Origin: Candidatus Hydrogenedentota bacterium
GTDB taxonomy: Bacteria; UBA8481; J006
NCBI GenBank assembly: GCA_003697085.1
Contig: RFFU01000014.1
Coordinates: 1 to 28,357 of the forward strand
Length of the DNA stretch: 28,357 nt
Direction of reading: 5' to 3'
The position numbers and the translations under genes were made by a program. This document shows positions 3,247 to 26,600 of the stretch, piece by piece; the stretch's first letter is position 1, and each line of letters opens with the position of its first letter. Under the pieces are notes generated by a model, which saw only the letters and a program-made list of their open reading frames with translations, was not told the origin of the DNA and made no database searches.

Positions 3247-3384
3247 TTCGACTCCTTTCGAAACGCGTTTGGTTGGGTTGTCCGCAAGCGGCCCTGCTTC
3301 ATCCTCCATCCCTTGCTCCCATCGAACGCGGCCGTCCTGCCTCGATGAGCCGTCACTGGAAGAACGAAGGGCGGCAGCCGGCTC

Positions 3385-4006: not shown

Positions 4007-4086
4007 ATTTCTTATTGAGACGGTGCTGTTGCCGAATCGGCCCCGGGCAGGGCACGTCCGAATCGTTGAGGGAAAGGAGCAAGGAT

Positions 4087-5526
4087 ATGGCGGTTTTTGG
4101 TGGAGGAAATGTCTCGAGGAATATGGCGGCAAGGAAGGGGGAGAGGAAGGAGCGTGGTGCGTTAGCGAGCGGAGGCGTAAGGAGTGAAAATGGAAATAGG
4201 GGTGACAAGGGGAGCGGGAGGGAGGGGAGTGGTTCCAATTCGAGGTCGAATGGGAGGGATGAGGCGCGGCGAAAGGCCCTCAAGGCTGCCGTGGACCAGA
4301 TCACGAAGGATTTCGGAAAAGGCGCGATTATGCTGTTGGGGGAGGGGCATCGAATGGATGTGGAGACGATGCCGACGGGTTTGATCGGTCTTGATTTGAT
4401 TCTTGGGGTCGGCGGTTTGCCTCGGGGGCGGGTGATCGAAGTTTTCGGGCCAGAATCGAGTGGGAAGACGACGTTATGTCTTCACGCGATTGCGGCCGCG
4501 CAACGTGAGGGAGGAACCGCGGCCTTTATCGATGCCGAACATGCCTTGGATCCTGTCTATGCTTCCCGATTGGGCGTCGATTTGAAGGAACTTTTGGTTT
4601 CGCAACCGGGTTGCGGTGAGGAAGCGTTGGAGATTACGGACGCGTTGGTACGCTCGGGAGCGGTGGATATGGTGGTGGTTGATTCGGTTGCGGCGCTTGT
4701 GCCGCGAGCCGAATTGGAAGGGGAGATGGGGGATTCTCATGTCGGACTGCAGGCGCGCTTGATGAGTCAAGCCTTGAGGAAATTGACGGCGACGGTATCC
4801 CGTTCCGGAACAATCTGTATCTTTATCAACCAGTTGCGGGAAAAGATCGGCGTGATGTTCGGTAATCCCGAGACGACCCCCGGCGGCCGCGCCTTGAAAT
4901 TCTATTCTTCCGTCCGGATCGATGTTCGTGGTGGCGAATGGATCAAGAATGGCTCGGAAGTCAGCGGGAAGAGAATGAAGGTCAAGGTAGTAAAGAACAA
5001 GGTAGCTCCTCCTTTCAAGACCGCCGTTTTCGATGTGATCTATGGCGAGGGAATTTCGAATGAAAGTTCCTTGATCGAATTGGGACTTCAACATCAGATA
5101 CTTCAAGCGCGAGGAGCGTGGATTCGTTGGGACGAGGAGCCTCTTGGTCAGGGGAGAGATCAAGCGAGAAAGTTTCTGATCGAGAACCCGGAAAAAGCAG
5201 CTCGTTTGGAAGAAATTCTTCGAAGCAGACTCTTCACGGTGGAAGCGGCGGGCCCGGATGAGGAAGCGTTGTTAACCCCGGCGGCAGGAGTCTCTACCAA
5301 AAGCAGGAAAATGGAAAATGGGAATGAAGAAACCAAAGCTCCAGTGAACGGAACACCAAACGGAAGTGGAGTCAAAGATGGGACCCGAAGAGGAGGCGGT
5401 CGTTTGCGCGAAGCAACAGCCTCGGCGGCGCCCCCTGTTCCCTCAACGCCGTCGTCCGCTGTATCAGATGGAATCGGTTCTCCAAGCCGACCGGTGGGGA
5501 AAAGGCGAATTCCGGTGGCCGTATAG
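4087..5526 (+). CDS. recA: Recombinase RecA with long N- and C-terminal extensions
   Basis: ATP-dependent strand-exchange protein for homologous recombination and SOS co-protease activity. The core spans about residues 60-383 of 479: Walker [10 protein letters not shown] (121-129), Walker B region [10 protein letters not shown] (195-204), L1 around [21 protein letters not shown], and L2 in [21 protein letters not shown] (248-268). Normal RecA has about 330-350 residues. Here about 58 Gly/Arg/Ser/Asn-rich residues precede the core and about 96 low-complexity Pro/Ser/Thr/Gly/Arg residues follow it, the latter in place of the usual acidic tail. The motif usually SQPDTGEQALEI reads [12 protein letters not shown], with Gly and Cys replacing Asp and Thr. 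AAAGGAG 9 bases before the ATG supports the start. An open frame back to 4015 lacks such a site. Confidence 0.95.
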
Positions 5527-8338: not shown

Positions 8339-8566
8339 AAATAACGGATAAAAAACTCTATTGACTGGTCCGGGTACGGGCCTCGGGAAACCCCGAAATG
8401 GCTGTGAGTGAAAATGGGAAGAAGGAGGTTGGAATTTTCAAGGGTCTCGGTTGAGAAAATTCTCGATTTTCACCTCGGAAACAAGGTCAAAGGAGAAGAA
8501 AAGCAATTCTAGTTTTGTTTTCGTTTGTTTCGTGGTGAAGTTCAGGGTAAAGGAGGAAGAGGGACG
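8339..8566 (+). promoter_or_regulatory. Long untranslated leader with hairpin before the cytochrome gene
   Basis: The roughly 220-base leader contains TCGGG-AAAC-CCCGA (8383-8396), extended by GCC/GGC at 8380-8382 and 8400-8402, and a GAGAA/TTCTC dyad near 8452-8463. I could not match it to a known riboswitch, including the molybdenum-cofactor class, by eye. Confidence 0.35.
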
Positions 8567-9337
8567 ATGGCGGCTAGATTTAGGTGTCGGAGATGGGGTC
8601 TTTTCATTTTCGTTCTCTTCTCGACGGCAATAATCGTTTTGGCTTCGGGATGCGGCGAAGCGGGTTCGGGCTCGAAAAAGCCGGGTACCGATTTGGCAAA
8701 GGCGCCGCTGTCGCGGGAGAAGGGCGTGGCGCCTCCTCGGTGGGTCAAGGCCAAGAGGGAAGTAACGTTGTCGGACGAAAAAATAGCGAAAGGAAAAGCG
8801 CTCTTCGCGGCCTGCGCGGCGTGCCACGGTACCGCCGGGGAAGGAAAGGTTGGCACCGGACCGCGGTTGGCGAGTAAGAGTTTTCTCGAAGCCGCGGGCG
8901 ACGATTTCTTGAAGAAAACGATCAGCGAGGGACGCGCGGGGACGACGATGATTGCCTGGAAGAATAGTTACAGTCCGGAGCAGATCGAGGCGTTGGTGGC
9001 CTACATTCGTTCCCTTCTTCCGACCGAGCCGGCGGAACTGAACGAGGCGCCGCTCCGAGGTGATTCCGCGCGCGGCGGGAAAATTTTCTCAAAGGTTTGT
9101 GCGAAGTGCCACGGAAGAAACGGCGCCGGTTACCAGGAATCGAGCAGCGGGACGGGAATCGGGAGGAAAGCCTTTTTGGAGACGGCTTCGAATGGGTATC
9201 TCCGGTACATTCTCAAGCATGGGAAATCGCTTACGCCGATGCGACCGTTTGACAAGAATGAGCCGACGGCGGAGGCGAACCTGACGGACCAGGAGATCGA
9301 CGATATTATCGCGTATCTCCGGGCGAACGCGTGGTAG
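8567..9337 (+). CDS. Di-haem class I cytochrome c lipoprotein
   Basis: A 256-residue periplasmic electron carrier. A hydrophobic signal (about 10-28) ends in lipobox LASGC, so the protein is probably lipid-anchored. Two cytochrome c domains follow: haem 1 at CAACHG with candidate distal Met in GTTMIAW, and haem 2 at CAKCHG with candidate distal Met in LTPMRPF. His/Met ligation points to a class I, higher-potential carrier, unlike NapB, which is bis-His. AAAGGAGG upstream of the ATG at 8567 supports the start. It is first in the operon, 14 bases before the NapA-like gene, so it is the likely direct electron donor to or acceptor from that enzyme. Confidence 0.93.
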   Translation: MAARFRCRRWGLFIFVLFSTAIIVLASGCGEAGSGSKKPGTDLAKAPLSREKGVAPPRWVKAKREVTLSDEKIAKGKALFAACAACHGTAGEGKVGTGPRLASKSFLEAAGDDFLKKTISEGRAGTTMIAWKNSYSPEQIEALVAYIRSLLPTEPAELNEAPLRGDSARGGKIFSKVCAKCHGRNGAGYQESSSGTGIGRKAFLETASNGYLRYILKHGKSLTPMRPFDKNEPTAEANLTDQEIDDIIAYLRANAW

Positions 9338-9351
9338 AAAGGAGTGGGGAG

Positions 9352-12093
9352 ATGACGAGACAGTTGAATCGGGAGAAGGTGGCTCAAGAAAGGAAGGAAG
9401 AGATTCTGGATCGGATGCCGGATAACCCGCCGGTGACAGGTTTGACGCGCCGCGGGTTTCTCAAGGCATCGTTGGCCACGTCGGCGGCCGTGGCGGCGGT
9501 TTCCTGTGGGGGCGGTGCGGAGCGTCCGGTCGCGAAGCCTTCAGGGGATCGAGTCGTTATGGCGGAAAACTCGGCTCCTCCGGAGAAAGATGTTCCGAAC
9601 AATATCTTGAGCGCGTGCCCCTACTGCGGAGTCGGATGTGGGACGATGATTCAGACGGAGAAAGGGAAGATCGTCGGTATGAAACCGGATCCGAAACATC
9701 CAACGAACAAGGGGCTTCAATGCATCAAAGGTTTGACATCGAATGAGGCGATTTATGTCGATCGTTTGACGAAACCTTTGATCCGGAAGGACTACAGCGA
9801 TCCACTTCGGGGCCATATCAGTGGTACGAAAGGCCGTTTCGACGATTCGGTCTTCCGGGAAGCGACCTGGGAGGAAGCCGAGGAACTAATCGTCGAGCAG
9901 ATCGCGGGAATCGTGAAGAAGTTTGGCGGGAACGCTGTTGGGCTTTACGGATCCGGACAACTACCCGTGGAGGGGCAATGGTTGGAGAATCTCTTTATGA
10001 AGGGGGTTCTGGGTTCGAACACAATCGAGGCAAACGCCCGGATGTGTATGACGTCTGCCGTCACAGGATACTTCAAGAGCCTCGGGAGTGATACCCCTCC
10101 TACGGCCTACGAGGACATCGAGTTGGCGGATATGGTGACGCATTGGGGGCACAATGCTCGCGGAGCGCACCCGATCGTCTTCTGGCGGATCGCGGATCAT
10201 AAGGCTCGAACCGGAATCCCGACACTCGTTGTCGATCCCCGCCGAACGGGGACGGTTCAGGGGTACGAGGAGATCGATCCCAAGAGTTCGTATCATTTCG
10301 CGACGATCAACGGCGATATCGCGATCCACAACGCGATTGCGCACGTTCTCTTGACAAAGCATGAGGAAGCCGTGGCCTGGGATTTTCTGAAGAAGTACAC
10401 GACCGGGTGGAAGGAATATGTAAAGGCCTGCAAGGAGCGGTATTCCCCGGAAGCGGTTCAAGAGATTACAATGATCGATCCGGATTATCTTCGCGAGGTT
10501 GCGGCACGTTGGGCGGAGGCCTCCATCAAGGGGCGGAAGAACGGAAAGGGAGGCGTGTTGACTTTCTGGGGGATCGGTTACAACCAGCATATTCACGGAC
10601 AGAACAACACGGTGAGCCTCATTAATTTGATGGCGCTTTCCGGGAACATCGGACGTCCCGGATGCGGTCCGTTTTCGATGACCGGGCAGCCGAACGCGAT
10701 GGGGGAGCGTCTGACGGGAGGGCTGACGGGGCGGCTTCCCTTCAACCAGGGGCTCAAGAATGAGAAGTGGAGAGCCCATATCGCACAAGCCTGGCGTATT
10801 CCCCGGGAACGCTTGGATCAGGTTGCCTCCTCGAGCAATCCGGGATACGCCGTGGGGATGATGGAACGGGCCTTGAAGGGGGATGTCAAGGCTTTCTTTC
10901 TGATCTACGCGACGCATATCGATCTTCCGGATCAGAACAACCTTGTTCGTCCCGCCCTGACGAAGACATTCAACGTCGCCCAGGAGATTTACCGGCACGC
11001 GCCGAACAATCTCTATGCGGACGTTATTCTTCCGGCGGCGACGTGGGGAGAATGGGTCGGCGGAACCTATATCCAATCGGAGCGACGCTTCTATGTCTGT
11101 GACGGGACGGCCAATCCGATTCCGGGAACGAAACCCGATATCGATATGGTTATTGACAAAGGGAAAGCGATCGCCAAAGCCCTGGGCCTCGACGGAGACA
11201 AGATCTTCCCTTACAAGAAACGACCGGACGGTTTCTACGATCCGGAAGACATCTTTCGCGATTTCGTCAGAGCCTCGAAAGGATCCGATGCGGATCTCAC
11301 GGGTATGCTGGAAGTAGAGGAACGGGATGGAATCAGCCTTTACGAGCAGATTCGGCGGCACCGAGGAATCCAGTGGCCGGCTCCTACATATGAGATTGCG
11401 AAGCAAGGGGGGACGAAGCGGAGATACATGAACCAGGAAGGGCCGTGGGTCACCAAACCATATGGGGCTTTTCGTCACAAGGACGGAAAACTGCATATTC
11501 ATCTTTGCGAACAGGACTATTCGAATCGGAAAGAGTTGACGGCGGAGTTGATGAGGATGGGAGCCGAGAAGGATTTTTATGCCATCGATCATATTGCTCT
11601 CCTGAAAGAGGCGCGGGACAAGGGCCTGACTCCCGAACTTCCGGATGAGGAGTACCGGGGAAAACCATGGCAAGAGATACCGAAAGACAAATATCCCTAC
11701 TGGATCGGCCTGGGAGTCGTTTACGAACATTTTCACACATCAAAAACGATCCGCTCGGGAACGACCCGCCGTCTCGTTCCGGAACAGTATGTCGAGATGC
11801 ACCCGGAGGATGCGGCGGCGTTGGGCATTCGCGATGGGGATTGGGTCCGCATTATAACGCGGCGCGGATCCTACGAGGCGCGGGCTTCCATCGGCCTTGA
11901 TTCCAAGGTCCGGCCGGCGCGCAATACCGTTCCGAGAGGTTATATGTTCAGCCCGTGGAATCTTTCAGTGGCCGACTCGGCCGATCCCGCAAAGAACCGC
12001 TGGCTTGTCAATGCCGTGAGCCATCGCGCCTTCGATCCTGTCAGCGGTCAGGTGGATTTCAAGAAGCTGGCCTGTCGGATCGAGAAGGTGTGA
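9352..12093 (+). CDS. NapA-like periplasmic molybdopterin oxidoreductase (probable nitrate reductase)
   Basis: A 913-residue Mo-bisMGD enzyme. A twin-arginine signal LTRRGFLKAS (RR 33-34) is followed by a hydrophobic stretch ending VSC (Cys 52), which may be lipidated. The [4Fe-4S] ligands are CPYCGVGC (89, 92, 96) and C124. NARMCMTSAVTGY supplies the probable Mo ligand Cys 232. The C-terminus ...DPVSGQVDFKKLACRIEKV and the segment YEHFHTSKT ... TRRLVPEQ resemble NapA closely, which argues for nitrate reduction to nitrite. Formate dehydrogenase-like relatives are the main alternative. It is longer than enterobacterial NapA (about 830). GAAAGGAG precedes the ATG. NapB, NapC and NapD are missing nearby. 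Confidence 0.9.
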   Translation: MTRQLNREKVAQERKEEILDRMPDNPPVTGLTRRGFLKASLATSAAVAAVSCGGGAERPVAKPSGDRVVMAENSAPPEKDVPNNILSACPYCGVGCGTMIQTEKGKIVGMKPDPKHPTNKGLQCIKGLTSNEAIYVDRLTKPLIRKDYSDPLRGHISGTKGRFDDSVFREATWEEAEELIVEQIAGIVKKFGGNAVGLYGSGQLPVEGQWLENLFMKGVLGSNTIEANARMCMTSAVTGYFKSLGSDTPPTAYEDIELADMVTHWGHNARGAHPIVFWRIADHKARTGIPTLVVDPRRTGTVQGYEEIDPKSSYHFATINGDIAIHNAIAHVLLTKHEEAVAWDFLKKYTTGWKEYVKACKERYSPEAVQEITMIDPDYLREVAARWAEASIKGRKNGKGGVLTFWGIGYNQHIHGQNNTVSLINLMALSGNIGRPGCGPFSMTGQPNAMGERLTGGLTGRLPFNQGLKNEKWRAHIAQAWRIPRERLDQVASSSNPGYAVGMMERALKGDVKAFFLIYATHIDLPDQNNLVRPALTKTFNVAQEIYRHAPNNLYADVILPAATWGEWVGGTYIQSERRFYVCDGTANPIPGTKPDIDMVIDKGKAIAKALGLDGDKIFPYKKRPDGFYDPEDIFRDFVRASKGSDADLTGMLEVEERDGISLYEQIRRHRGIQWPAPTYEIAKQGGTKRRYMNQEGPWVTKPYGAFRHKDGKLHIHLCEQDYSNRKELTAELMRMGAEKDFYAIDHIALLKEARDKGLTPELPDEEYRGKPWQEIPKDKYPYWIGLGVVYEHFHTSKTIRSGTTRRLVPEQYVEMHPEDAAALGIRDGDWVRIITRRGSYEARASIGLDSKVRPARNTVPRGYMFSPWNLSVADSADPAKNRWLVNAVSHRAFDPVSGQVDFKKLACRIEKV

Positions 12094-12099
12094 GGAAGG

Positions 12100-12747
12100 A
12101 TGGGCGGGAGTCCTCGAGACGCGACTCCAGCCCGGATAGAGACGGAGAAGAATAGCATAAACACATCCGGTTCGAGGAGACGGTTCCTAGGAAGCGCGGT
12201 CGCTTCTCTGACGGCGTTTCTGGGTTGGAAGTCCGCTGGAAAGGATTCGACGGCGGGAGGATTCGAACTCCGGCCGCCGGGAGCTCTTTCAGAGAAGGAC
12301 TTTCTCGAAGCCTGCGTACGCTGTTTCCGCTGCGCCGAGGCCTGTCCGAACGACTGCATTCGTTTCCACGGCCTTGGGAAGGGATTACGGAAGGCCTTTA
12401 CTCCGTTCATCGAGGCGCGGGAGCGAGGGTGTATTCTCTGCGGCGAATGCGCGAAGGCCTGTCCGAGCGGAGCACTCGTTCCGTTCCAAGCAACCCGCGA
12501 CGGATGGCTTGCGAGTGTGAAGATGGGAACGGCGCGCGTCAACAAATCGATGTGTTATAGCTATAACGGGAGGACGTGCGGGGTTTGCTATCGTGCCTGC
12601 CCCTTGGCGGGACAGGCTATGACGATCGGAGTCTTCGAGACCCCGATTGTTCATCCCGAGGCTTGCGTGGGTTGCGGACTCTGCGAGCAGTCTTGTGTCC
12701 ACGTCCCTCAGGCGATACGGGTTATCCCTGAGCCGTCGGAAGCATGA
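12100..12747 (+). CDS. NapG-like (MauM/NapG) ferredoxin-type protein, four [4Fe-4S] clusters
   Basis: A 215-residue electron-transfer protein with a twin-arginine signal (SRRRFLGSA, 25-33), hence exported folded to the periplasm. After the family hallmark RPPGALSEKDFLEAC come four complete Cys sets: 72/75/78/82, 111/114/117/121, 152/160/163/167 and 189/192/195/199. NapG works with NapH to deliver quinol electrons to the periplasmic nitrate reductase. The gene starts 6 bases after the NapA-like stop, with GAGGAAGG directly before the ATG, and its end overlaps the next start by 4 bases (ATGA), indicating translational coupling. Confidence 0.93.
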   Translation: MGGSPRDATPARIETEKNSINTSGSRRRFLGSAVASLTAFLGWKSAGKDSTAGGFELRPPGALSEKDFLEACVRCFRCAEACPNDCIRFHGLGKGLRKAFTPFIEARERGCILCGECAKACPSGALVPFQATRDGWLASVKMGTARVNKSMCYSYNGRTCGVCYRACPLAGQAMTIGVFETPIVHPEACVGCGLCEQSCVHVPQAIRVIPEPSEA

Positions 12748-14354
12748 AAAGGGTTTCGCGGCTCCTCGGCTCACAGGGATTTCGGAAGATGGTTCAGATT
12801 TCGGTTATTCTCCTCGTTCTCTATGCCGCGCTCAACGTTTCTTGGCGGAACTTCAAACAGGCTCACAATAGTGCCAGGATCGTCGGACTTCTTCACGGCG
12901 CAGTTGCTGAGCGACTCTATTCCGCCAACGAAGCGCTTCTCTCTCTCTTCGGAGATTCGTATCGAGCTACCTTCGCCAACCTCGGTTTCCCCTGGACCTT
13001 TCGAACGTTCGGGATCGAGTCGGTCGATCCCATTTTGGCCCTGGACCTTTTTGCACGCCGCCACGCTCTTTCCAGTACGGTTCTTGTCGGGCTCATTCTT
13101 CCCCTCCTAATCGTTCTTATCGCGGGGAAGGTCTTCTGCTCTTACTTCTGTCCCGCGCGGCTCCTTTTCGAATTCTGCTCCGCGCTGCGTCGTGGATTGA
13201 TCAGATTGGGGCTTCCCTTGCCTGAATTTCACCCGCCGTTTCGTTTCGGAGGTTGGGTGCTTTTCGGGGGACTTCTTGCGTCGGTCGCCGGCGCGGGATC
13301 GATCTGGTATCTCCTTCTTCCGTATCTTTCCATCGCCGGTTCCCTCTTTCTGGCCATCACGGGAGGAACAACGGGAGGCCTTCTCTTCGTCGTCCTTGGC
13401 TGGTGTATCTTGGAAATCGTTCTTGCGCCAGGATGGGCCTGCCAAGGGCTCTGCCCCACGGGTTTCCTCCTCGAACGCTTCGCCGTCGAGCGATCGCTTG
13501 TTCTGGAAAATTTGCATTCGGGAGATTGTCCGCGACACTGTTCTTCTTGTCGCCAGGCCTGTCCCTATTCGCTCTACCCCCGCGCGGGTACGACGGCTTA
13601 TTTGAATTCCTGTGACAACTGCGGCCTTTGCGTTCAGCAGTGCCCTAAGGATTATCTCCGTCGCCGATGGAAGCCGTCTCCCATCCTTCCCCGTTTTCTG
13701 TTTCCACGCGGCACGGAAGAAGGAGGAGCCCGGAGGATCTCTTCTTTGGCTCTTCTGCTTCTCTTTCTTCCCGCTCTCGTTTACGCCCATCATAACAAGG
13801 GTCTCCCGCACTACGGTTATTTCGAGAACTACCCGCAGGTTCCGACGAAGGAATATGTCGAGATTCACGGGCGTTGGGAGATCGGTGCCACGATCTTCAA
13901 TTTCCAGGGGCTTGACCGCCGGAAGGCGGATACCCCCAACGACGTCAAAATTTACCTTTACATTTATGATTCCGAATCGGGAGCCAATTACTCCGGCCCC
14001 GTCGATTTTGTGATTCGACAAGGGGAGAGGGTCATTACGCGTTTTCATCGCGAAAAACCGGACGAAGAACTCGTGTATATCAGCCGAGAAACCTTGCCGC
14101 GATCGGGAGAGTATGTGATCGAGGCGCAACTACCCGGGGAAGCCGGGGGGGACGTGTTGCCCTTGAGATTTGAGATCAAGATCGCGGGGGAGGGATGGCA
14201 TCCGGTCTGGATCATCGGAGGGAGCATGGGGATTCTGGGGATGTTGATGCTTGGGGCCTACGGCCGACGAAGAAAAATCCGGAAAAAATCCTCGAATCGA
14301 AGAGAGAGATTTTCGGAGAACGTCAACGTTGAGGAAAAGAGGAAGCAGGAATGA
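12744..14354 (+). CDS. NapH-like membrane polyferredoxin fused to a C-terminal periplasmic domain
   Basis: A 536-residue integral membrane protein. The NapH-like part (1-310) has hydrophobic segments near 17-33, 110-128, 168-206 and 212-230, the CxxxCP motifs at 132-137 and 233-238, and two cytoplasmic [4Fe-4S] sets at 262/266/269/273 and 290/293/296/300. NapH is about 280 residues, so everything after about 330 is extra. The extra part begins with a signal-like segment (SLALLLLFLPALVYA), followed by HHNKGLPHYGYFENYPQVP, a beta-rich domain of about 120 residues, a final membrane helix (486-506) and a basic tail. That domain resembles FixH/YtkA-type Ig-like folds, by impression only. It presumably oxidises quinol and passes electrons to the NapG-like protein. 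Overlaps both neighbours by 4 bases. Confidence 0.85.
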   Translation: MKRVSRLLGSQGFRKMVQISVILLVLYAALNVSWRNFKQAHNSARIVGLLHGAVAERLYSANEALLSLFGDSYRATFANLGFPWTFRTFGIESVDPILALDLFARRHALSSTVLVGLILPLLIVLIAGKVFCSYFCPARLLFEFCSALRRGLIRLGLPLPEFHPPFRFGGWVLFGGLLASVAGAGSIWYLLLPYLSIAGSLFLAITGGTTGGLLFVVLGWCILEIVLAPGWACQGLCPTGFLLERFAVERSLVLENLHSGDCPRHCSSCRQACPYSLYPRAGTTAYLNSCDNCGLCVQQCPKDYLRRRWKPSPILPRFLFPRGTEEGGARRISSLALLLLFLPALVYAHHNKGLPHYGYFENYPQVPTKEYVEIHGRWEIGATIFNFQGLDRRKADTPNDVKIYLYIYDSESGANYSGPVDFVIRQGERVITRFHREKPDEELVYISRETLPRSGEYVIEAQLPGEAGGDVLPLRFEIKIAGEGWHPVWIIGGSMGILGMLMLGAYGRRRKIRKKSSNRRERFSENVNVEEKRKQE

Positions 14355-15934
14355 ACGGAATGTCGGGGATGGAGCCGGGGGCGATGGAAGGCGGCCGAAT
14401 GGTTATGGTTATGAAGGGAATACCCTTCTCCTGGTTCCTCTTCGGCTTTGTCTCGATCCTCCTCCTGTCGTTTCTTTTCGTCGAATTTCGGGGCACGGGC
14501 AAAGCAAGTCGAATGCGCTTTCTTCTCTTTTCTCCGCGGAAACGCGCCTTTCTCGCCCGTTCTCGTTCTCTTCAACCGTTTTTCCAAGGAATGATGGGGC
14601 TCATTCTTCTCGGGATCGTTTACGCGGGTTTTTTTGGCAGTCGTGTCCTCAATATCGCGCCTGTTCTCGTCTGGACGATTTGGTGGGCGCTTCTCATCTT
14701 CGTTATTGTTTTGCTTGGACCGCTGTTCTGTTTCGCCTGTCCCTGGGACGGCTTGGCGAATCTCGTGACGCGTCTCGGCGGTATTCGGGTTCTCCGACCG
14801 ATTTCAATGGAATGGAGGTTTCCAAAATTTCTCGAGAACCTCTGGCCGGCTACGATTCTTTTCGTCATCCTGACCTGGCTCGAACTGGGGTATGGTGTAA
14901 CGACGAATCCCGCTGCTACGGCGGCCATGGGACTGGCGATGGCCATCGGGGCCGCCGCGGCGGCCCTCTTGTGGTCCGGAAAAAGGTTTTGCCGGCATTT
15001 TTGTCCCGTTGGTAGGATCAGCGGGATGTACGCGAATTTCAGCCCCGTCGAAATCAGGGCGAACAAACCGGCCGCGTGTCGAACTTGTGAAACCGAGGAT
15101 TGTCTCAACGGTAACGAGAACGGCTATCCCTGCCCCGTGGGACTGTCGCTCAAATTTCTTGATGATTCCACCTATTGCACGATGTGTTTGGAATGTTTCA
15201 AGTCCTGCCGTAGATCGAATGTGGCCTTTCGCCTGCGGCCCTTTGGATCGGACCTGCCGCTGCGCCGGAGGGTGGCGTGGGACGAGGCCGGGCTTTGTTT
15301 GGCCCTCCTTGGGCTGACACTCTTCCATGGCTTCACGATGACCCCGGTCTGGGAGAATTTTACGCCCGGCGGATGGAGTCTCCTGAAGGCGATGGCCGTC
15401 CGTTGGGGGACTTCGAGAACCTTTAACTTTTCGGTGGCGATGGCGGCGGCTTTGGCGGTTCCTGTTGTTGCTTATTTTCTTGCGGGGACCGCGGCGGCCA
15501 AGGCGGCGCGGGTTCAAAATACGGGAGAGGTTTTGCGGACTTTTGCCCCTTCTCTTCTTCCCGTGGCGCTCTTCTATCATCTCGCGCATAATCTTATGCA
15601 CTTTGCGATGGAAGGTTCGAGTCTTGTTCCACTTCTGAGTGATCCGCTGGGGCGTGGTGCGAACCTTTTTGGAACGGCGTCTTACCATTACGGGGCGCTT
15701 TTGTCCCAACCTGCCGTCTGGATGCTTCAGGTGGCGCTGATTTTAACGGGGCATATTTTTGGTATCGTTGTGACGCATCAAACGGCCGAGTCGGTTATCG
15801 GGACCGAGGAAATTGATGCGCGAAGAAGACGATTCCTCCTTTCGCTTCCATTCCTTCTCTTGATGATCCTCATTTCGGTGACGGGACTCGGATTGATGCA
15901 TATGGATATGAATATGCGCGTGGGGCGGATGTGA
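14351..15934 (+). CDS. Second NapH-like 4Fe-4S membrane protein with His-containing C-terminal helices
   Basis: A 527-residue polytopic membrane protein distinct from its upstream neighbour. It has CxxCP at 127-131, CxxxCP at 214-219, a Cys group at 243/246/251/261 and a full ferredoxin set at 276/279/282/286. Beyond the Fe-S part, further hydrophobic segments carry H410, H413 and H417 (FYHLAHNLMHFAMEG), then H468 and H476, spaced as haem-b or quinone-site ligands might be. Both ends are Met-rich (eight Met in the first 21 residues; MHMDMNM near the end), a pattern seen in copper-binding proteins. Likely an electron-transfer partner between quinol and the periplasmic enzyme; haem or copper binding is inference. 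ATGA overlap with the preceding gene. Confidence 0.8.
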   Translation: MNGMSGMEPGAMEGGRMVMVMKGIPFSWFLFGFVSILLLSFLFVEFRGTGKASRMRFLLFSPRKRAFLARSRSLQPFFQGMMGLILLGIVYAGFFGSRVLNIAPVLVWTIWWALLIFVIVLLGPLFCFACPWDGLANLVTRLGGIRVLRPISMEWRFPKFLENLWPATILFVILTWLELGYGVTTNPAATAAMGLAMAIGAAAAALLWSGKRFCRHFCPVGRISGMYANFSPVEIRANKPAACRTCETEDCLNGNENGYPCPVGLSLKFLDDSTYCTMCLECFKSCRRSNVAFRLRPFGSDLPLRRRVAWDEAGLCLALLGLTLFHGFTMTPVWENFTPGGWSLLKAMAVRWGTSRTFNFSVAMAAALAVPVVAYFLAGTAAAKAARVQNTGEVLRTFAPSLLPVALFYHLAHNLMHFAMEGSSLVPLLSDPLGRGANLFGTASYHYGALLSQPAVWMLQVALILTGHIFGIVVTHQTAESVIGTEEIDARRRRFLLSLPFLLLMILISVTGLGLMHMDMNMRVGRM

Positions 15935-16497
15935 TGGGAGAAGAGACGCTTTCACGGCGGGAATGGTTGCTGAGCCTCGTTCCGAGGGCGGCCGATGTGG
16001 TGGAGAAGAGCGTGGAGGCGGGAAGTTCTCGCGCATTGCCCAGGCGCCTGCGTCCTCCCGGGGCTCTGAGTGAGGCTCTGTTCCTGGCGACCTGTGAGCG
16101 CGGTCATCAGTGCGCGGAGGCCTGTCCATGGAATGCGATCTTCTTTCTCGAGGAATCCCCGGGGAAGGGAACACCGGTGATGATTCCGGACGAGCGAGCC
16201 TGTCATTTCTGCGAAGGCTTTCCCTGCGCCGCCGCCTGTCCCTCCGGAGCACTGCTTCCACCGGCGGACGGAAAATGGCGTTTCGGAACGGTTCGCGTCC
16301 TGAGTGAGCATTGCCTTGTCTTTCAGGGGCCGGAGTGCGGGGCCTGTGCCGGCCTCTGCCCTGAAACGGCTGTCGGAGCATTGCGCCTGGTCGCGGGGAA
16401 GCCCGTCATCGAGGATGAAGCGTGTGTCGGGTGCGGGTTATGCATCGAGGCCTGCCCGACCGAGCCGAAGGCGATTGCTTTGGTCCCCGCACGCTGA
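15934..16497 (+). CDS. Second NapG/NapF-like ferredoxin with incomplete first cluster
   Basis: A 187-residue ferredoxin-type protein sharing RPPGALSEALFLATC with the NapG-like protein. Cys sets two to four are complete: 90/93/98/102, 127/135/138/142 and 164/167/170/174. The first set has C54, C60 and C64 but Gly 57 where the second Cys is expected, so it may hold a [3Fe-4S] cluster or none. A weak twin-arginine (LSRREWLL) is not followed by a clear hydrophobic signal, so a cytoplasmic, NapF-like site is possible. The ATG at 15934 overlaps the preceding stop as TGATG; a GTG at 15931 is the alternative. Last gene of the tight cluster. Confidence 0.85.
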   Translation: MGEETLSRREWLLSLVPRAADVVEKSVEAGSSRALPRRLRPPGALSEALFLATCERGHQCAEACPWNAIFFLEESPGKGTPVMIPDERACHFCEGFPCAAACPSGALLPPADGKWRFGTVRVLSEHCLVFQGPECGACAGLCPETAVGALRLVAGKPVIEDEACVGCGLCIEACPTEPKAIALVPAR

Positions 16498-16579: not shown

Positions 16580-17179
16580 ATGATGAAAGCAGGTCAGGTC
16601 CTTGTGGAGGAACACAAGGTTATTCTGAAAGTGTTGGATTGTCTGGAGAAGGTGGTCCGGAGCGCTGAGGAGGGAGAGCCGATCGAAAAAATGGACGTGG
16701 AGGAGATTCTTGACTTCGTTAGGAATTTCGCTGACAAAACGCACCACGCCAAAGAAGAAGATCGGCTTTTTGTCGTGATGGAAGAACACGGATTTTCAAG
16801 ACAGATGGGACCGACAGGGGTGATGCTGTCCGAACATACAATGGGAAGACGTTGCGTGAAGGAGATGGCGGAGGCTTTGTCGGGAGCTGCGGAAGGCGAT
16901 GGAGAGCAGCGGAGGAGGTTTTGTGAAAGCGCCCGAGCGTTTCTGAGTCTGTTGCGCAATCATATTGCAAAAGAAGATCACTGCCTCTTTCCGATGGCGG
17001 AGAATGCTCTGGCGCCGGAAGAGCGGGAGCGGCTGTATGAGGATTTTGTCAGAATCGAGCGCGAGGCGGGGGGAAAGCGGCACGAAATATACATCGGAAA
17101 AGCCGAAGATCTTTGCAAAAAGTTTGGAGTTGATTTTGACAAGGAAGAGGTTCCGTTACTCTTCAAGTGGAAAATGTGA
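16580..17179 (+). CDS. Hemerythrin HHE-domain protein
   Basis: A 199-residue four-helix protein with a probable di-iron site. Candidate ligands follow the hemerythrin pattern: H12 (EEHK), H56 and E60 (HHAKEED), H86 (SEH), and H128/E132/H134 (NHIAKEDHCLFP). Such proteins bind O2 or NO, or take part in iron-sulfur repair under nitrosative stress. AAAGGAGGT precedes the ATG at 16580. Placed 82 bases after the Nap-like operon on the same strand, it may protect against NO arising from nitrite, or sense O2 for the pathway; that role is inferred from position only. Confidence 0.9.
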   Translation: MMKAGQVLVEEHKVILKVLDCLEKVVRSAEEGEPIEKMDVEEILDFVRNFADKTHHAKEEDRLFVVMEEHGFSRQMGPTGVMLSEHTMGRRCVKEMAEALSGAAEGDGEQRRRFCESARAFLSLLRNHIAKEDHCLFPMAENALAPEERERLYEDFVRIEREAGGKRHEIYIGKAEDLCKKFGVDFDKEEVPLLFKWKM

Positions 17180-20686: not shown

Positions 20687-20757
20687 AAAAGGGATACGGA
20701 CACCGACACAGTTGGAATGAACGGGAAGTTTCGGGCACGACCTGGAAGTGACTCCCG

Positions 20758-20789
20758 GCGCGAAATTGACAAAATGCAAGAATGACCCC
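20758..20789. repeat. 32-base dispersed repeat, copy B
   Basis: Second copy of the element at 8250-8281 (30 of 32 identical), starting GCGCGAAATTGACAAAATG. Here it is followed by CCCCTT-N7-AAGGGG, a small hairpin (about 20786-20804). It lies in the leader of the DHS-like gene. Confidence 0.85.
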
Positions 20790-20945
20790 TTTTTCTTGAA
20801 GGGGGAGAGGGGGTGTGGCAAGATGGTGCTTCTTTTTTGTGAAGAGGAGGGGAGAGAGGTGAGGCGGGGACGGGGGGATGACGGCGGAGGAAGGGGAACC
20901 GAAGGCGTGAGTGGGAAAGAAAAGGATGAAGGAGAAGGAAGACGA

Positions 20946-22001
20946 ATGGCGGAGGAAGTGAAAGAGGAACTCGGCCGCTATCTCAAGGACGGTTTCGCCG
21001 ACGGGTTGGAACCGTTGGAACCGATCGATGTGACGAAGACGCGCACCGTTTCCGCCATCCTTTCCGCGTACAAGAAGTGTGCTTTCGGGGCGCGGTCCTT
21101 GGGCGAAGCCGCCGACGTGCTCGAAACGATGATTCGCGACACGAAATGCGGAGTCATTCTGACGTTGTCCGGCGCGATGACGGTCGCGAAGATGGGCCTT
21201 TTGGTCTGTGAGATGATCGATCGGGGTTGGGTCCAAGGGATCGTTTCAACCGGCGCACTGATGGCGCATGGGTTGATCGAGGGGGCGGGAATGACACATT
21301 TCAAGGCCCGGCCCGATCTGGACGACGAGGCCCTCTTCGCCAACGGTTACGACCGTGTTTACGACACCTATGAACTCGAGAAGAACCTCGATGAGGCGGA
21401 AATAATTGTGCGTAACGTTCTCGCGGGACTGCCGGAGGGATCCGCCGTGGCGAGCTGGGAGATCAACCGGGAGTTGGGGCGTTATCTGAAAGAGAATGTT
21501 TCCGGACGCGCCATTCTGAAATCCGCCTTCGAGAAATCAGTGCCGGTCTTCGTGCCGGCGTTTACCGATTCCGAACTCGGGCTCGATCTCGCCACGTTCA
21601 ACCATCTGCAAAGGAAGGAAGGAAAACCGGAAATCCGTTTTGAACCTCTCTACGATCTCGAAGCGTTCACGGAATTGGTTTGTTCCTTCGAGTATCCAGG
21701 AATCTTTACGATCGGGGGGGGAGTTCCTCGGAACTGGGCTCAGCAGTTCGGGCCGTACCTCGATATTCTCAGCCTTCGTGTCGGCACGGAGGTTCCCCGG
21801 AAGCGATACCGATACGGGGTGCGGATCTGCCCCGAGCCTGTCCATTGGGGGGGACTTTCGGGGTGCACGTATTCGGAGGGCGTTTCGTGGGGGAAGTTCG
21901 TGCCGCCTTCGGAAGGCGGGCGATTCGCGGAGGTTTACTGCGATGCGACGATCGTGTGGCCGCTTCTCGTGAGGGCCTTGATCGAAAGACTCGAAGGATG
22001 A
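20946..22001 (+). CDS. Deoxyhypusine synthase-like protein
   Basis: A 351-residue enzyme of the deoxyhypusine synthase fold, NAD-dependent aminobutyl transfer from spermidine in characterised members. Recognisable blocks are LTLSGAMTVAKMG (73-85), STGALMAHGLIEG (101-113), PVFVPAFTDSELGLDL (200-215), FTIGGGVPRN (254-263) and, decisively, EGVSWGK (311-317) with the catalytic Lys 317, followed by EVYCDATIVWPLLVRAL. Bacteria lack eIF5A, so the physiological acceptor is probably a free polyamine (homospermidine-like chemistry) or another protein; this is inference. The start at 20946 has GGAGAAGGAAG upstream. The frame stays open to 20748, but that stretch includes the 32-base repeat and low-complexity codons. 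First gene of the long downstream operon. Confidence 0.88.
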   Translation: MAEEVKEELGRYLKDGFADGLEPLEPIDVTKTRTVSAILSAYKKCAFGARSLGEAADVLETMIRDTKCGVILTLSGAMTVAKMGLLVCEMIDRGWVQGIVSTGALMAHGLIEGAGMTHFKARPDLDDEALFANGYDRVYDTYELEKNLDEAEIIVRNVLAGLPEGSAVASWEINRELGRYLKENVSGRAILKSAFEKSVPVFVPAFTDSELGLDLATFNHLQRKEGKPEIRFEPLYDLEAFTELVCSFEYPGIFTIGGGVPRNWAQQFGPYLDILSLRVGTEVPRKRYRYGVRICPEPVHWGGLSGCTYSEGVSWGKFVPPSEGGRFAEVYCDATIVWPLLVRALIERLEG

Positions 22002-22044
22002 GCCGCTGCGGACCGAAAAAAGACTTTTGTGATCCACGCGCGTT

Positions 22045-23442
22045 ATGCTGAACCAGGTCGAGTATTACGCACATCCGGCGGTGCGGCGGAGGATCGCGGA
22101 GTATTGCGGCGGGGATCCGGATCACTCGGCGGGAATGACGGCGGAATACCTCGTCGGCTTCGGCGAATGTCTTCTTTGGGACGGACGTGCCGAGCCCTTC
22201 CTTTCGGTTGACACGAGCCGTTTTCACGAATTGCTGGATCGGGGTCTGGATGTTTTTCGTTCGAACTGGGACGCGGTCGCGACCCTGGGCGTTCTCGATA
22301 TCGAGTATTTCAACAACGATTATCCCGGCGAGATTTATCTTCGTCCTCAAAGATGCTTCGCGCTCCTGGAACCGGTGCGGCTGGCCGTGCGGGCCGTCTT
22401 TTCCGAATACGGAATCCCTTTTCTCGAGATCATGACGGGGCAGGGGTATCACTTCACGACGCGCGTTCTGAGGAACTCGGCGGCGGACGAAGGATTGATT
22501 CGCATTGGGCGGGTGAGGGACACCCTGGCGGGGAAGTACGCCCATCCCACAGGCCGGCGGAAACGCCGGGTCTCGATCTTTCACGGCCGTTCGTTCGACG
22601 GAATGGGGCGGTTGATGGAGTTCGTGGCCCATCAGGTGATCCGCCGTGCTCGTGATCGTTCGCGGCTTCCGATCGTCACGACCGATGTCGCCGTGGGGCC
22701 TGGGCGCTGCGGTCGCGAAGCCGTCTCGATCGACCTCTCGATGTACGCTGATCCGATCCATATGCGTGACATCCGCACGGCTTTCTCGACGCATCAGAAA
22801 CACAAGGTCTTTCGGGAAAAAGTGGGGCGGGGCATCGCCGACGGCACGCCGGTCCAGACCTGTTTCCCCACGGGTTCGATGACGCTTTATGAGCGGCTTC
22901 GGATGCGCCGGCATTTTCGCTGGACGGCGGAGTGGGCCCAGAGTTGCGGGCCGATGACGATCCCTGTCGGCAACGCCGGAATTCTTCGATTGCTCCGCGC
23001 CTACCGTTCGAGCCGACTCTACCGCTTCCACAGGGAGTTCGATTCCGTCGATCACGATCACTGGACGCGTTGGAGCGAAACCTATGATCGGTTCGATCTC
23101 TCGCGGATTCCTCCTTGCGTCCGCGAAATTCTCCTGCGTCCGAATCCGAACATACTCAAGCCGACCAACATTCAGACTTTGGTGCGGGTGCTTCTCTCTC
23201 TGGGATGGCATCCGAAACATGTTGCCGGGTTGATTCGAAGCAAACTGGAACGCGATTACGGCTGGACGGAGGATTGGACCAAATACGATGCCGGGTCCCG
23301 TGCGGATTTCTACGTCCGGCTCTTCGCCGGGCAACTGCGGTGCGGCCTGGACGGCCTTGCGGACCACAACTGCGTCAGCCATCAGGAAAAAGGTTATTGC
23401 GTGGAATCGTGGTGCGGTTATTCTCTTGGAAATTACCGTTGA
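22045..23442 (+). CDS. Probable archaeo-eukaryotic primase (AEP) family protein with PriL-like Cys-rich C-terminus
   Basis: A 465-residue protein. Three AEP-like motifs occur in order: VLDIEYFNNDYP (83-94, acidic pair D85/E87), MTGQGYHFTT (130-139, the Gly-x-His motif II) and SIDLSMYADPIHMRDIRTAF then STHQKHK (228-254, motif III acid plus RTAFS-x-H resembling R-x-PGS-x-H). The C-terminal part starts IPPCVREILL (355-364) and continues as a helical block, NIQTLVRVLLSLGWHPKHVAGLI, to C443/H446/C452/C457. This recalls the PriL Fe-S domain, where PPC supplies the first of four Cys. Predicted to synthesise or extend primers. The start has no good ribosome site and lies 43 bases after the DHS-like stop. 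Call rests on motif reading; a novel nucleic-acid enzyme is the fallback. Confidence 0.62.
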   Translation: MLNQVEYYAHPAVRRRIAEYCGGDPDHSAGMTAEYLVGFGECLLWDGRAEPFLSVDTSRFHELLDRGLDVFRSNWDAVATLGVLDIEYFNNDYPGEIYLRPQRCFALLEPVRLAVRAVFSEYGIPFLEIMTGQGYHFTTRVLRNSAADEGLIRIGRVRDTLAGKYAHPTGRRKRRVSIFHGRSFDGMGRLMEFVAHQVIRRARDRSRLPIVTTDVAVGPGRCGREAVSIDLSMYADPIHMRDIRTAFSTHQKHKVFREKVGRGIADGTPVQTCFPTGSMTLYERLRMRRHFRWTAEWAQSCGPMTIPVGNAGILRLLRAYRSSRLYRFHREFDSVDHDHWTRWSETYDRFDLSRIPPCVREILLRPNPNILKPTNIQTLVRVLLSLGWHPKHVAGLIRSKLERDYGWTEDWTKYDAGSRADFYVRLFAGQLRCGLDGLADHNCVSHQEKGYCVESWCGYSLGNYR

Positions 23443-23452
23443 GGCGATTGAC

Positions 23453-23872
23453 GTGAGAGATGAAGGAGCCGGGGCGGACGCCCCACCGGAACGAAGAGGC
23501 CGGGCGGACAGGAAATACGCTCGGGAATATATCGTTCTGCGGGCGATCGTCTTCTTCGACGACGAGCCTCCGCTTTCGTGCGGTCTGATGGACGTGTCGG
23601 TTGCGGGCGCGAAGGTGAAACTGGACGATTATTCGCCCGAGATCGGAACGAAAGTCCTGCTGCAGATCGATGCCCTCAAGGTGCGCGCCCGCGGCAAGGT
23701 CCTTCGCGTCTTTCCAACGCCCTCCGGAATTGAGGTCGCCATCAAGTTCGATCAAATCTATAATAATATCCCGGGCCGGCTCCTGGAATATAAACTCCGC
23801 AGTTTCCAGGATTCCCCCCGGGGAGGAGTCCAGGGGAGACCGGGCGGAGGGAAGAGAAGGGGATTTTTATGA
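23453..23872 (+). CDS. PilZ-domain protein, putative c-di-GMP receptor
   Basis: A 139-residue single-domain protein. RKYAR (20-24, RxxxR) and DVSVAGAKV (47-55, DxSxxG) are the two c-di-GMP contacting motifs of PilZ, followed by beta-strands (TKVLLQIDALKVRARGKVLRVF ... GIEVAIKFDQI). Such proteins relay second-messenger level to motility, secretion or polysaccharide machinery. A GTG start at 23453 is chosen because it lies 10 bases after the preceding stop with TTGAGG upstream. The frame continues farther back inside the primase-like gene, which is probably not translated. Its stop overlaps the next ATG by 4 bases. Confidence 0.85.
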   Translation: MRDEGAGADAPPERRGRADRKYAREYIVLRAIVFFDDEPPLSCGLMDVSVAGAKVKLDDYSPEIGTKVLLQIDALKVRARGKVLRVFPTPSGIEVAIKFDQIYNNIPGRLLEYKLRSFQDSPRGGVQGRPGGGKRRGFL

Positions 23873-24813
23873 CGAGGGAGGGGAGGATGATTCGTTTCGC
23901 AACGGGCCTGGTTGTGATGGGAGCGATCCTTTCGCTCTTCGGATGTGTCAGCGCGGCCGATCCCTACAATCTTCACCCCGCGGCGTTGCGTCTCGAACGC
24001 GCCATTACCGGCCCCGTCACGCTCGAACCTCAATCGGCAGCCTTGAGAAGGCAGTACGTTCTCTATGAGGGGGAGCCCCATCCCGGCGGGGGTATCACGT
24101 ACCGTCCCTTCGCCATGACAGGCGTGACGATGACCCCGGAACTCGGGGATGCGATCCTGGGAAGAAAGCGCCGTTTCGGGGAGGTCTTCGGTTTGCTTTC
24201 CCGAGGGGCCGCCGGGGAGAGCGCGGATAACGAACTCGTTCCGCGTGTGGCTCCGAGCGAGTTGACTCGTGCCGAGCAGGAGATTATCGACGCCGAGAAC
24301 AGGGATCGGAAGGTGATCGTGGAGACCTTCTTGAAGGAGCGAGGGCTTCCGGAGGCCGAAGCTTCCGCCGTCAAACGAGTGATGGCTTTCGCGCGGTATC
24401 AGGTTCTCCCGCGCGGAATCTGGGTCGAAAAGCAACCCGGGCATTGGGTCCTCAAGGGAGGCGCCGGGTTCCGCGAGAAGGTTCTCTCGGAACCGCCGAT
24501 GGAGATGGAACCGCTGCCGCAAAGATCCACCGCCCCTCCGCCTCCTCCTCCGCGCCCCGCCATCCTTGAAGCCAGCCCCACGGTGCGGAAATCCGATCAC
24601 GAGCCGAGCGGAGAACGGGAGGAGCGGGCGGAAAAAGAAACGAGAAGTCGTTCGGCGGTCGAGCAGGAGTCGCGCTCAACCGCGGAGGAAAACGAGCCGG
24701 TTTTGCTGGAGCCGGAGCCGACACTTCGGGGCGAGCCGGAAACGAAGTCGGAGGCGGCGGAAAGCGGGGAAGAGCCGATTGTGATTGAGTCTCCCGCCCC
24801 CCGGCTTCGCTGA
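23869..24813 (+). CDS. YdbL/DUF1318-like lipoprotein with Pro/Glu-rich tail
   Basis: A 314-residue lipoprotein. The signal segment MIRFATGLVVMGAILSLFGC places the lipidated Cys at 26. The middle (about 110-205) contains AELTRAEQ-like SELTRAEQEIIDAENRDRKVI and ends FARYQVLPRGIWVEKQPGHWVLK, the arrangement of DUF1318/YdbL proteins (AEN-x-DR then PG-x-W-x-GxW). The last 100 residues are low complexity, with a PPPPPP run and many Glu/Ser/Arg, probably disordered and periplasmic. Function of the family is not established. The start at 23869 forms an ATGA overlap with the PilZ gene and has GAAGGGG upstream; 23887 is an alternative. Confidence 0.7.
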   Translation: MTREGRMIRFATGLVVMGAILSLFGCVSAADPYNLHPAALRLERAITGPVTLEPQSAALRRQYVLYEGEPHPGGGITYRPFAMTGVTMTPELGDAILGRKRRFGEVFGLLSRGAAGESADNELVPRVAPSELTRAEQEIIDAENRDRKVIVETFLKERGLPEAEASAVKRVMAFARYQVLPRGIWVEKQPGHWVLKGGAGFREKVLSEPPMEMEPLPQRSTAPPPPPPRPAILEASPTVRKSDHEPSGEREERAEKETRSRSAVEQESRSTAEENEPVLLEPEPTLRGEPETKSEAAESGEEPIVIESPAPRLR

Positions 24814-25438: not shown

Positions 25439-25926
25439 AGAAGGTAAAACCACGTCTTTCTCAGGAACCGTGGTACGCGACCGGTTTGCGTTTCTCCTGC
25501 CAACCGGATTGTCACAAATGCTGTCTTCGAGAGGGCATCGTGGAGTTGAGAGAGGGGGAAGGGGAGGATAGACGCTTAGCGGAAGCCTTGGGTCTGTCTC
25601 TGAAGGCGTTTCGCGGCAAATTCACGGATAAGGATGATATGAACGGGCGGTTTATGGAGGACGGCCCCCACGGAGGATGTCCGTTGTGGAGAGACGGTTG
25701 TCGCGTTTATGACGTTCGCCCCTCACAATGTCGTTCCTATCCCTTCTGGCCGGAGATTCTCAAGTCGCGAAGGTCCTGGGAAAAGGAGGGCCGTTTCTGT
25801 CCCGGCATCGGTACCGGCCGATGGTATTCGCGAAGCGAGATAGCGGCGATTTTGGCCGGCGAGGGAGAGGCGACGGCGGAGAGAAAGGAAGGGGTGAAGC
25901 GGAGAGTGGTCGGAGGAGAGGAATGA
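25435..25926 (+). CDS. YkgJ family Cys-cluster protein
   Basis: A 163-residue protein of the YkgJ (Fe-S or zinc-binding, UPF0153) family. The N-terminal FSCQPDCHKCC gives Cys 22, 26, 29 and 30. CPLWRDGCRVYDVRPSQCRSYPFW contains the family hallmark CxxYxxRPxxCRxYPFW across its second part, and FCPGIG follows. The C-terminal 30 residues are charged. Biochemical role is not known for most members; metal binding is expected from eight conserved Cys. Overlaps both neighbours with ATGA junctions, so it is translationally coupled to the nucleotidase and the endonuclease III-like gene. Confidence 0.9.
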   Translation: MKKVKPRLSQEPWYATGLRFSCQPDCHKCCLREGIVELREGEGEDRRLAEALGLSLKAFRGKFTDKDDMNGRFMEDGPHGGCPLWRDGCRVYDVRPSQCRSYPFWPEILKSRRSWEKEGRFCPGIGTGRWYSRSEIAAILAGEGEATAERKEGVKRRVVGGEE

Positions 25927-26600
25927 CGGACTCCGGCGCGAGGATCCGCCGGCTCTTCGAAATTCTTCGGGCGAAGCACGGCCCGCAGGGCTGGTGGCCA
26001 ACGACGAGCCGCCATGGGCTTGAACCCCTCTACCGCCCGGGGCGCGAAGGACGGCGGACGGATTCCCGTGAGACGTTCGAGATCATTGTGGGGGCCATCC
26101 TGACGCAGAACACGGCCTGGCGCAATGCCGCCGCGGCCTTGAAAAACCTCAAGCGGAACGGGTTAATTTCTCCTCGAGAGGTCTGGAGATGTCGGAATCT
26201 GGAGGAGTTGATTCGCAGTGCCGGATATTTTAACCAGAAGGCTGACCGCCTTCGATGTCTGGCACGGGATATCGAGTCCGCAGGAGGAATCTGGCGGCTG
26301 CGGCGCCGGGATTCACAGGAACTTCGAAAATGGTTCCTCGAGAGAAAGGGAGTGGGGCCGGAAACGGCCGACTCGATCCTCTGCTACGGTTTCCAGCGTC
26401 CGGTCTTCGTCGTGGATGCCTACACGGCAAGGCTTTTTAGACGAGAAGGAATTCCTTTTTCGGGGTACGAGGAAACACGGAGGATGGTGGAGGAGTCGTT
26501 GCCGGCTGATTCCGCAATCCTGGGCGATTTCCATGCGCTGATCGTAGCCGAGATGAAGGGAGGGGGAAACGGTGCCGTTCGCGTTTCTGCGTCGCGATAA
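25923..26600 (+). CDS. Endonuclease III-related HhH-GPD protein lacking the Fe-S tail
   Basis: A 225-residue base-excision repair type protein of the group related to endonuclease III (COG2231-like: QGWWP, FEIIVGAILTQNTAW, GYFNQKADRL). The helix-hairpin-helix is ERKGVGPETADSIL (140-153) and the catalytic Asp is D165 in VFVVDAYTARL. The Lys used by bifunctional Nth for lyase chemistry is replaced by E147, so a monofunctional glycosylase is expected. Related proteins normally go on from HALIVxHGK to four Cys for a [4Fe-4S] cluster. Here HALIVAEMKGGGNGAV stops soon after, with no Cys. The last 29 bases overlap the sensor kinase gene. Confidence 0.85.
   Translation: MTDSGARIRRLFEILRAKHGPQGWWPTTSRHGLEPLYRPGREGRRTDSRETFEIIVGAILTQNTAWRNAAAALKNLKRNGLISPREVWRCRNLEELIRSAGYFNQKADRLRCLARDIESAGGIWRLRRRDSQELRKWFLERKGVGPETADSILCYGFQRPVFVVDAYTARLFRREGIPFSGYEETRRMVEESLPADSAILGDFHALIVAEMKGGGNGAVRVSASR

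Follow-up and report, generated by a model that had tools for sequence, protein, structure and literature searches.

Bacterial enzymes of the AEP superfamily are known mainly from NHEJ and BER ligase complexes, from CRISPR loci and from mobile elements, with DnaG as the normal primer-making enzyme, and PriL-type Fe-S domains are tied to the chromosomal primases of archaea and eukaryotes (PMC5862659). In eukaryotic primase the PriL domain supplies the site for the initiating nucleotide, and in Sulfolobus, where PriX replaces it, the Fe-S cluster was found dispensable for priming (PMC5700102); the purpose of the cluster is debated. In mycobacteria, Prim-PolC fills gaps of 1-3 nt together with glycosylases and endonuclease IV (PMC5663958), and PriS-PriL fusions of DPANN archaea provide a precedent for joining the two primase parts (PMC7414124).

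Here we analyzed a stretch of 28,357 nucleotides (the window), being one contig of a 3.2-Mb bacterial genome, in which a single chain of 465 residues combines an AEP core with a C-terminal cysteine domain that is very probably PriL-like (Table 1). Having both parts within 465 residues and naturally occurring Cys-less paralogues, the family would constitute a compact system for studying what the Fe-S cluster of primases is for, and an endonuclease-IV-like gene neighbor found at several loci suggests a testable repair pathway.

Table 1. Positions in the window of the primase-polymerase gene, its motifs and presumed ligands, and three genes downstream
Feature	Position	Strand	Remarks
Primase-polymerase, AEP core and PriL-like Cys domain	22045..23442	+	ATG ORF, 465 aa, single chain
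AEP motif I LDIEY (residues 84-88; presumed metal-binding D85, E87)	22294..22308	+	25/25 members
AEP motif II TGQGYHF (residues 131-137; H136)	22435..22455	+	G134 and H136 invariant; T131 is T/S
AEP motif III and following strip, SIDLSMYADP (228-237) to RTAFSTHQKH (244-253)	22726..22803	+	D230, R241, R244, S248, K252 invariant
Helical PriL-like C-terminal domain, residues 306-465	22960..23439	+	Fold search and weak PF04104 match
C358, presumed cluster ligand 1, in PPC motif (IPPC, 355-358)	23116..23118	+	21/21 Cys-bearing, 0/4 Cys-less members
C443, presumed ligand 2	23371..23373	+	21/21 Cys-bearing members
C452, presumed ligand 3	23398..23400	+	21/21 Cys-bearing members
C457, presumed ligand 4	23413..23415	+	20/21 Cys-bearing members
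PilZ-domain gene, next gene	23453..23872	+	PF07238; inferred GTG start 23453, mechanical ORF start 23288
DUF1318-like gene (weak match)	23869..24813	+	Kept in sister genome
HhH-GPD DNA glycosylase, 3-methyladenine-glycosylase-like	25728..26600	+	PF00730 4.4e-12; PRK13913 8.8e-28, below cut-off

Catalytic core and family

Searched on its own, the protein gave no match in Pfam, NCBIfam, PHROGs or PDB sequences and nothing in PADLOC, and the family profiles (from alignments A2 and A4) gave only chance matches in the PDB. A 537-residue ORF on the opposite strand (21769-23382) overlaps the gene, and because conservation across genomes tracks the plus frame we regard it as a mechanical overlap. The motifs that an earlier note had read from this DNA, including C443, H446, C452 and C457, were all located where it had placed them in the 465-residue ORF. 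The AlphaFold model obtained from alignment A2 (mean pLDDT 91.4, pTM 0.92) displayed the RRM-like AEP core that the note's reading required. Using VIA-align, the best match of this model was mycobacterial Prim-PolC (5op0; Z 17.5 over 254 residues, 3.5 A), followed by LigD-Pol (Z 15.4), the Methanocella NHEJ polymerase (15.0), CAPP (12.8), archaeal PriS (11.8; 1v33/1g71), human Pri1 (11.4), RepB' (9.0) and human PrimPol (6.6), and since these matches are AEP enzymes, with Prim-PolC at the top, we assigned the core to that superfamily. Foldseek against viral structure models returned nothing below E 0.001.

The core had been described as PriS-type, which agreed with these analyses in part. In its modeled structure it is nearer to Prim-PolC and LigD-Pol than to PriS, while the strip following motif III resembles that of PriS, with the consensus R.PFSxHQKH lining up with human PriS LLKSPFSVHPKTG and the family consensus PFSxHxK matching human PriS LDINVSKGINHLLKSPFSVHPK. 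A search for the PriS family PF01896 in the window's own genome gave none above cut-off.

The family profile was built from six relatives, and in a sampled set of 386 bacterial genomes from 327 genera it found the gene in 18 genomes and 15 genera, in chromosomal positions; all three genomes of one small phylum carried it, as did one of the 74 genomes of another. The one named relative, from the Candidatus Hydrogenedentes MAG PEWQ01000175, is 64% identical over its full length, and across the 25 members of alignment A2 the relatives are 25-64% identical to the window protein. Motif I DxD/E, the motif II His and motif III hD were found in all 25, and D85, E87, H136 and D230, which the note had singled out for a check across homologues, proved invariant, as did P237 and the further residues so marked in Table 1. 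Sequence and model together indicate a catalytic AEP core whose two-metal site is complete (D85, E87 and D230), and in which H136, R244, S248 and K252 would be residues of the nucleotide-binding type.

In four members C358 and the segment around C443 are missing, one of them having two stray terminal cysteines, whereas the catalytic residues are retained in all four; some genomes hold both the Cys-bearing and the Cys-less kind. The Cys-less members form one clade in the tree, so that the joint loss of the cysteines counts as one event and is weaker evidence than the 21 to 4 count implies. At one locus (L032 1587-4475, contig 105 of G001) a divergent AEP paralogue of 515 residues with intact motifs lies upstream of a Cys-less AEP gene at a distance of 9 bp, and a heteromer of these two proteins is possible. 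At another (L036 2443-5276, G232) two Cys-bearing AEP paralogues stand in tandem with a 4-bp overlap.

The C-terminal cysteine domain

The earlier note had also proposed a PriL-type domain at the C-terminus, containing C443, H446, C452 and C457. Of this set the three cysteines held, together with C358, which the note had listed separately for a conservation check, and all four were invariant or nearly so among the 21 Cys-bearing members (Table 1). H446 was found in 10 of the 21, being M, F, T, A, Y or Q elsewhere, and C433 in two, and both therefore fall outside the conserved set. Four conserved cysteines, the first of them in an (L/F)PxC turn, are a feature of PriL domains that the family shows. 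The spacing between the first and second is 85 residues in the family and 80 in human PriL, whereas the next two intervals are 9 and 5 residues as compared to 17 and 40 in the human protein.

Folded alone by AlphaFold (residues 296-465; pLDDT 85.4), the domain gave a VIA list in which the top 11 entries were all 4Fe-4S domains of primase large subunits. The best of these (6di6) reached Z 5.9, which is below 8, over 110 residues at 4.1 A, followed after the PriL domains by the pRN1 PriCT (Z 4.2) and then by the first unrelated row (Z 3.1). Foldseek likewise listed PriL 4Fe-4S domains first, but with E 2.5. In sequence the signal was weak. The primase large subunit family PF04104 was matched by 2 of 21 members, with a best E of 0.0085 against 24,736 families, which for one pre-named family is far rarer than chance, yet under the curated cut-off. 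With hhalign, the Cys domain gave a probability of 3% against one human PriL sequence, although the PPC segment was aligned, and the segment between the first two cysteines scored a shuffle z of 1.9 for profile against human PriL, with 17 of 400 shuffles being as good; for these reasons we do not claim sequence homology to PriL. The PriL part of pTN2, used as query against the PDB, also found no PriL. The ranking of the structural matches thus favored the proposal, and the direct comparison with the human PriL sequence was not significant. The domain is very probably PriL-like, and it is likely, though with somewhat less certainty, that it holds a real 4Fe-4S cluster. The AEP-core fold matches end at about residue 290-320 and the Cys-domain match begins at about 345, leaving no room for the N-terminal docking domain of PriL, and the protein therefore does not qualify, strictly speaking, as a fused PriSL primase.

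Genomic setting and the endonuclease-IV-like partner

In the window the AEP gene is followed by genes for a PilZ-domain protein, a DUF1318-like protein, an NT5C-type phosphatase and an HhH-GPD glycosylase. The same order is kept in the sister genome, minus the NT5C gene that occurs in the window only, with PilZ again as the next gene and the glycosylase at 8434-8922 of that locus (L001, G001). The operon with repair-type neighbors that had been proposed is hence borne out by the glycosylase but not by the genes immediately upstream, which are deoxyhypusine-synthase-like and PMT-like and are not repair genes. The former (20748-22001; PF01916 1.3e-74), ending 43 bp upstream of the AEP gene, encodes a protein of deoxyhypusine synthase fold that falls far under every NCBIfam equivalog cut-off. 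Elsewhere the window holds a respiratory cluster (8525-16497) that encodes a cytochrome c having two heme stretches, a TAT molybdopterin oxidoreductase of 920 residues, and two each of ferredoxin-like and Fer4_5 membrane proteins; a hemerythrin gene (16580-17179) comes next, and on the minus strand lies a PurU-like formyltransferase with an ACT domain (2356-3309) near recA (4015-5526).

At other loci the neighbors included HisRS, LpoB, DUF374, CstA, YbbR, ThiF, NamZ, a glycosyltransferase and a chromate transporter, with several of these (CstA, ThiF, NamZ and the chromate transporter) being among the unrelated neighbors found in many carriers. The Cys-less form stood in a conserved order PhoH(PIN)-PHP-AEP-ClpB/C-like in three related genomes (L051 3521-9917, L052 857-6789 and L053 7295-13251), and its PhoH and PHP neighbors suggest nucleic-acid work. 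None of the 24 loci had a CRISPR-like array nearby, neither cas genes nor a ligase were found among the annotated neighbors, and searches of phage, plasmid and viral collections turned up no relatives. A dnaG match was found in all 18 carriers, 17 of them above cut-off, while Ku was found in one of the 18, on a different contig from the gene, and LigD-Pol in none of eight carriers tested, with PF21686 being empty in the window's own genome. These findings make it most unlikely that the protein is a replicative primase or an NHEJ polymerase. They also support the chromosomal, non-CRISPR, non-mobile and non-NHEJ setting that had been read from the window.

At eight loci, which come from six taxonomic families and are spread over several of the deep branches in the tree, the next gene encodes an AP_endonuc_2 TIM barrel, directly downstream on the same strand with a gap of -4 to +66 bp. 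The partner is not adjacent in 13 of the 21 Cys-bearing genes, and a search of the genome to which the window belongs found none at E 1e-20. Its scores lie below the cut-offs for CbiR, deoxyribonuclease IV and epimerases, including the nfo family TIGR00587 (at most 34.2 bits against a cut-off of 129.65, in six partners tested), and its best solved relative is MJ1311. When the partner of one locus (L049) was compared with M. tuberculosis endonuclease IV (5zhz), the residues H, H, E, D, H, H, D, H and E matched at the nine positions of its trinuclear-metal ligands. All nine are kept in the eight adjacent partners, and some are missing from the sugar epimerases that the partner resembles. Because it resembles those epimerases and MJ1311 too, a metabolic role is possible.

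Proposed role and comparison with known systems

With Prim-PolC as the closest fold and a domain of the type that supplies the initiation site in PriL, we lean towards a primase-polymerase with built-in initiation that serves repair or damage tolerance alongside DnaG, and not as the replicative primase. The C-terminal domain would hold a 4Fe-4S cluster and bind the template and also, by its triphosphate, the initiating nucleotide, such that one chain could both start and extend a strand. Short gaps opened by glycosylases and enzymes of the endonuclease IV type might then be filled, or synthesis restarted, by the primase-polymerase, in a role modeled on mycobacterial Prim-PolC. In favor of repair we count the Prim-PolC and LigD-Pol folds, the invariant catalytic residues, the PriL-like domain matches, the presence of DnaG and the scarcity of Ku and LigD-Pol, along with the endonuclease-IV-like and glycosylase neighbors, which themselves suggest a DNA repair job. 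Against it stand the missing partner in the window's genome, the weak PriL sequence signal and the unrelated neighbors in many carriers. A more specific version, put forward tentatively, would be a bacterial cellular family in which a genuine PriL-type 4Fe-4S initiation domain and the endonuclease-IV-like partner make up a two-gene module for base-excision or gap repair.

The absence of base-excision neighbors at most loci would also suit an enzyme like PrimPol that primes afresh downstream of lesions where forks have stalled, and to which the base-excision link is incidental. An AEP core with a PriL-like module is fit for de novo initiation, and carriers that keep DnaG would have it as an extra primase; however, the fold of human PrimPol is a more distant match than that of Prim-PolC, and the partner that recurs is of the endonuclease IV type, so that we regard repriming as unlikely, though the most serious of the alternatives. 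A zinc finger of UL52-like type is present in human PrimPol (PMC10345425), and C443/H446/C452/C457 of the window protein does resemble a C-H-C-C pattern. That the C-terminal cysteines form such a finger instead of a PriL-type Fe-S site is nevertheless improbable, given that C358 is present in 21 of 21 members while H446 is not conserved, for which reason the reading using H446 was rejected, and that PriL domains rank first in the fold search. A role outside DNA, in nucleotidyl transfer or in RNA repair or signaling with a phosphodiesterase of EndoIV fold, appears slightly less probable still: besides endonuclease IV, the partner resembles the CbiR phosphodiesterase and sugar epimerases, and a function in RNA repair has been predicted for some AEPs (PMC5862659), but the closest structures are of enzymes working on gaps and breaks in DNA, and a PriL-like module suggests synthesis directed by a template. 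Least probable is that the primase was acquired from a plasmid, phage or integrated element, or works for one. Of the bacterial AEPs described for the PrimPol-PV1 group, most are encoded by mobile elements (PMC5862659), and the distribution is patchy, as in the phylum with 1 of 74 genomes. Yet no relatives were found in the mobile-element collections searched, housekeeping neighbors such as HisRS, PhoH, PHP, ClpB-like and LpoB are seen, one small phylum carries the gene in every genome, and gene order is common to sister genomes.

The repair primase-polymerase that we favor can finally be set against the known systems. With Prim-PolC and LigD-Pol it shares the closest AEP fold and the motif order D-x-D/E, GxxH-type and hD, and endonuclease IV and glycosylases are the working partners of Prim-PolC (PMC5663958). 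It differs from both in that no Pfam match to LigD_Prim-Pol (PF21686), no ligase among the annotated neighbors and no Ku operon were found, and by having the four-Cys C-terminal domain and the PriS-like strip after motif III. The AEP core, the probable PriL-type 4Fe-4S-like domain, the PPC cysteine and the PFSxHxK strip of human PriS are held in common with PriSL, whereas the family is bacterial, has no room for the N-terminal domain of PriL and coexists with DnaG in all carriers; compared to human PriL it also has no obvious counterpart of R306 and a shorter spacing from the second to the fourth cysteine. Human PrimPol has an AEP core and a C-terminal Cys-rich module too, with a weaker fold match (Z 6.6) and a zinc-pattern His that is not conserved in the family. 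PrimPol-PV1 primases belong to mobile elements, unlike this family with its housekeeping neighbors and its place outside the plasmid, phage and viral collections searched.

PolpTN2, from the Thermococcus plasmid pTN2, is likewise a single chain with a PriS-like core and a four-Cys PriL-like domain (PMC3973330), but it is archaeal and plasmid-borne where the present gene is chromosomal, its motif II His is replaced by Gln (PMC5862659) where the family keeps His, and it has further PriL and winged-helix parts. CAPP combines a bacterial AEP core (Z 12.8) with a C-terminal PriCT having conserved cysteines (PMC8211822). The window protein lacks its N-terminal TPR (no TPR match, with the AEP-core match starting at residue 1), the family loci lack a nearby CRISPR array, and the family profile fails to detect the CAPP core sequence. 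The broad architecture, which the earlier note had thought might be undescribed, is thus already known from CAPP, PolpTN2 and the DPANN PriS-PriL fusions. The open-access literature searched contained no description of this family or of an AEP/endonuclease-IV-like gene pair, and within what was searched there appears to be novelty both in a bacterial family that has all four cysteines outside CRISPR, mobile and NHEJ settings and in the nuclease-like protein that partners it.
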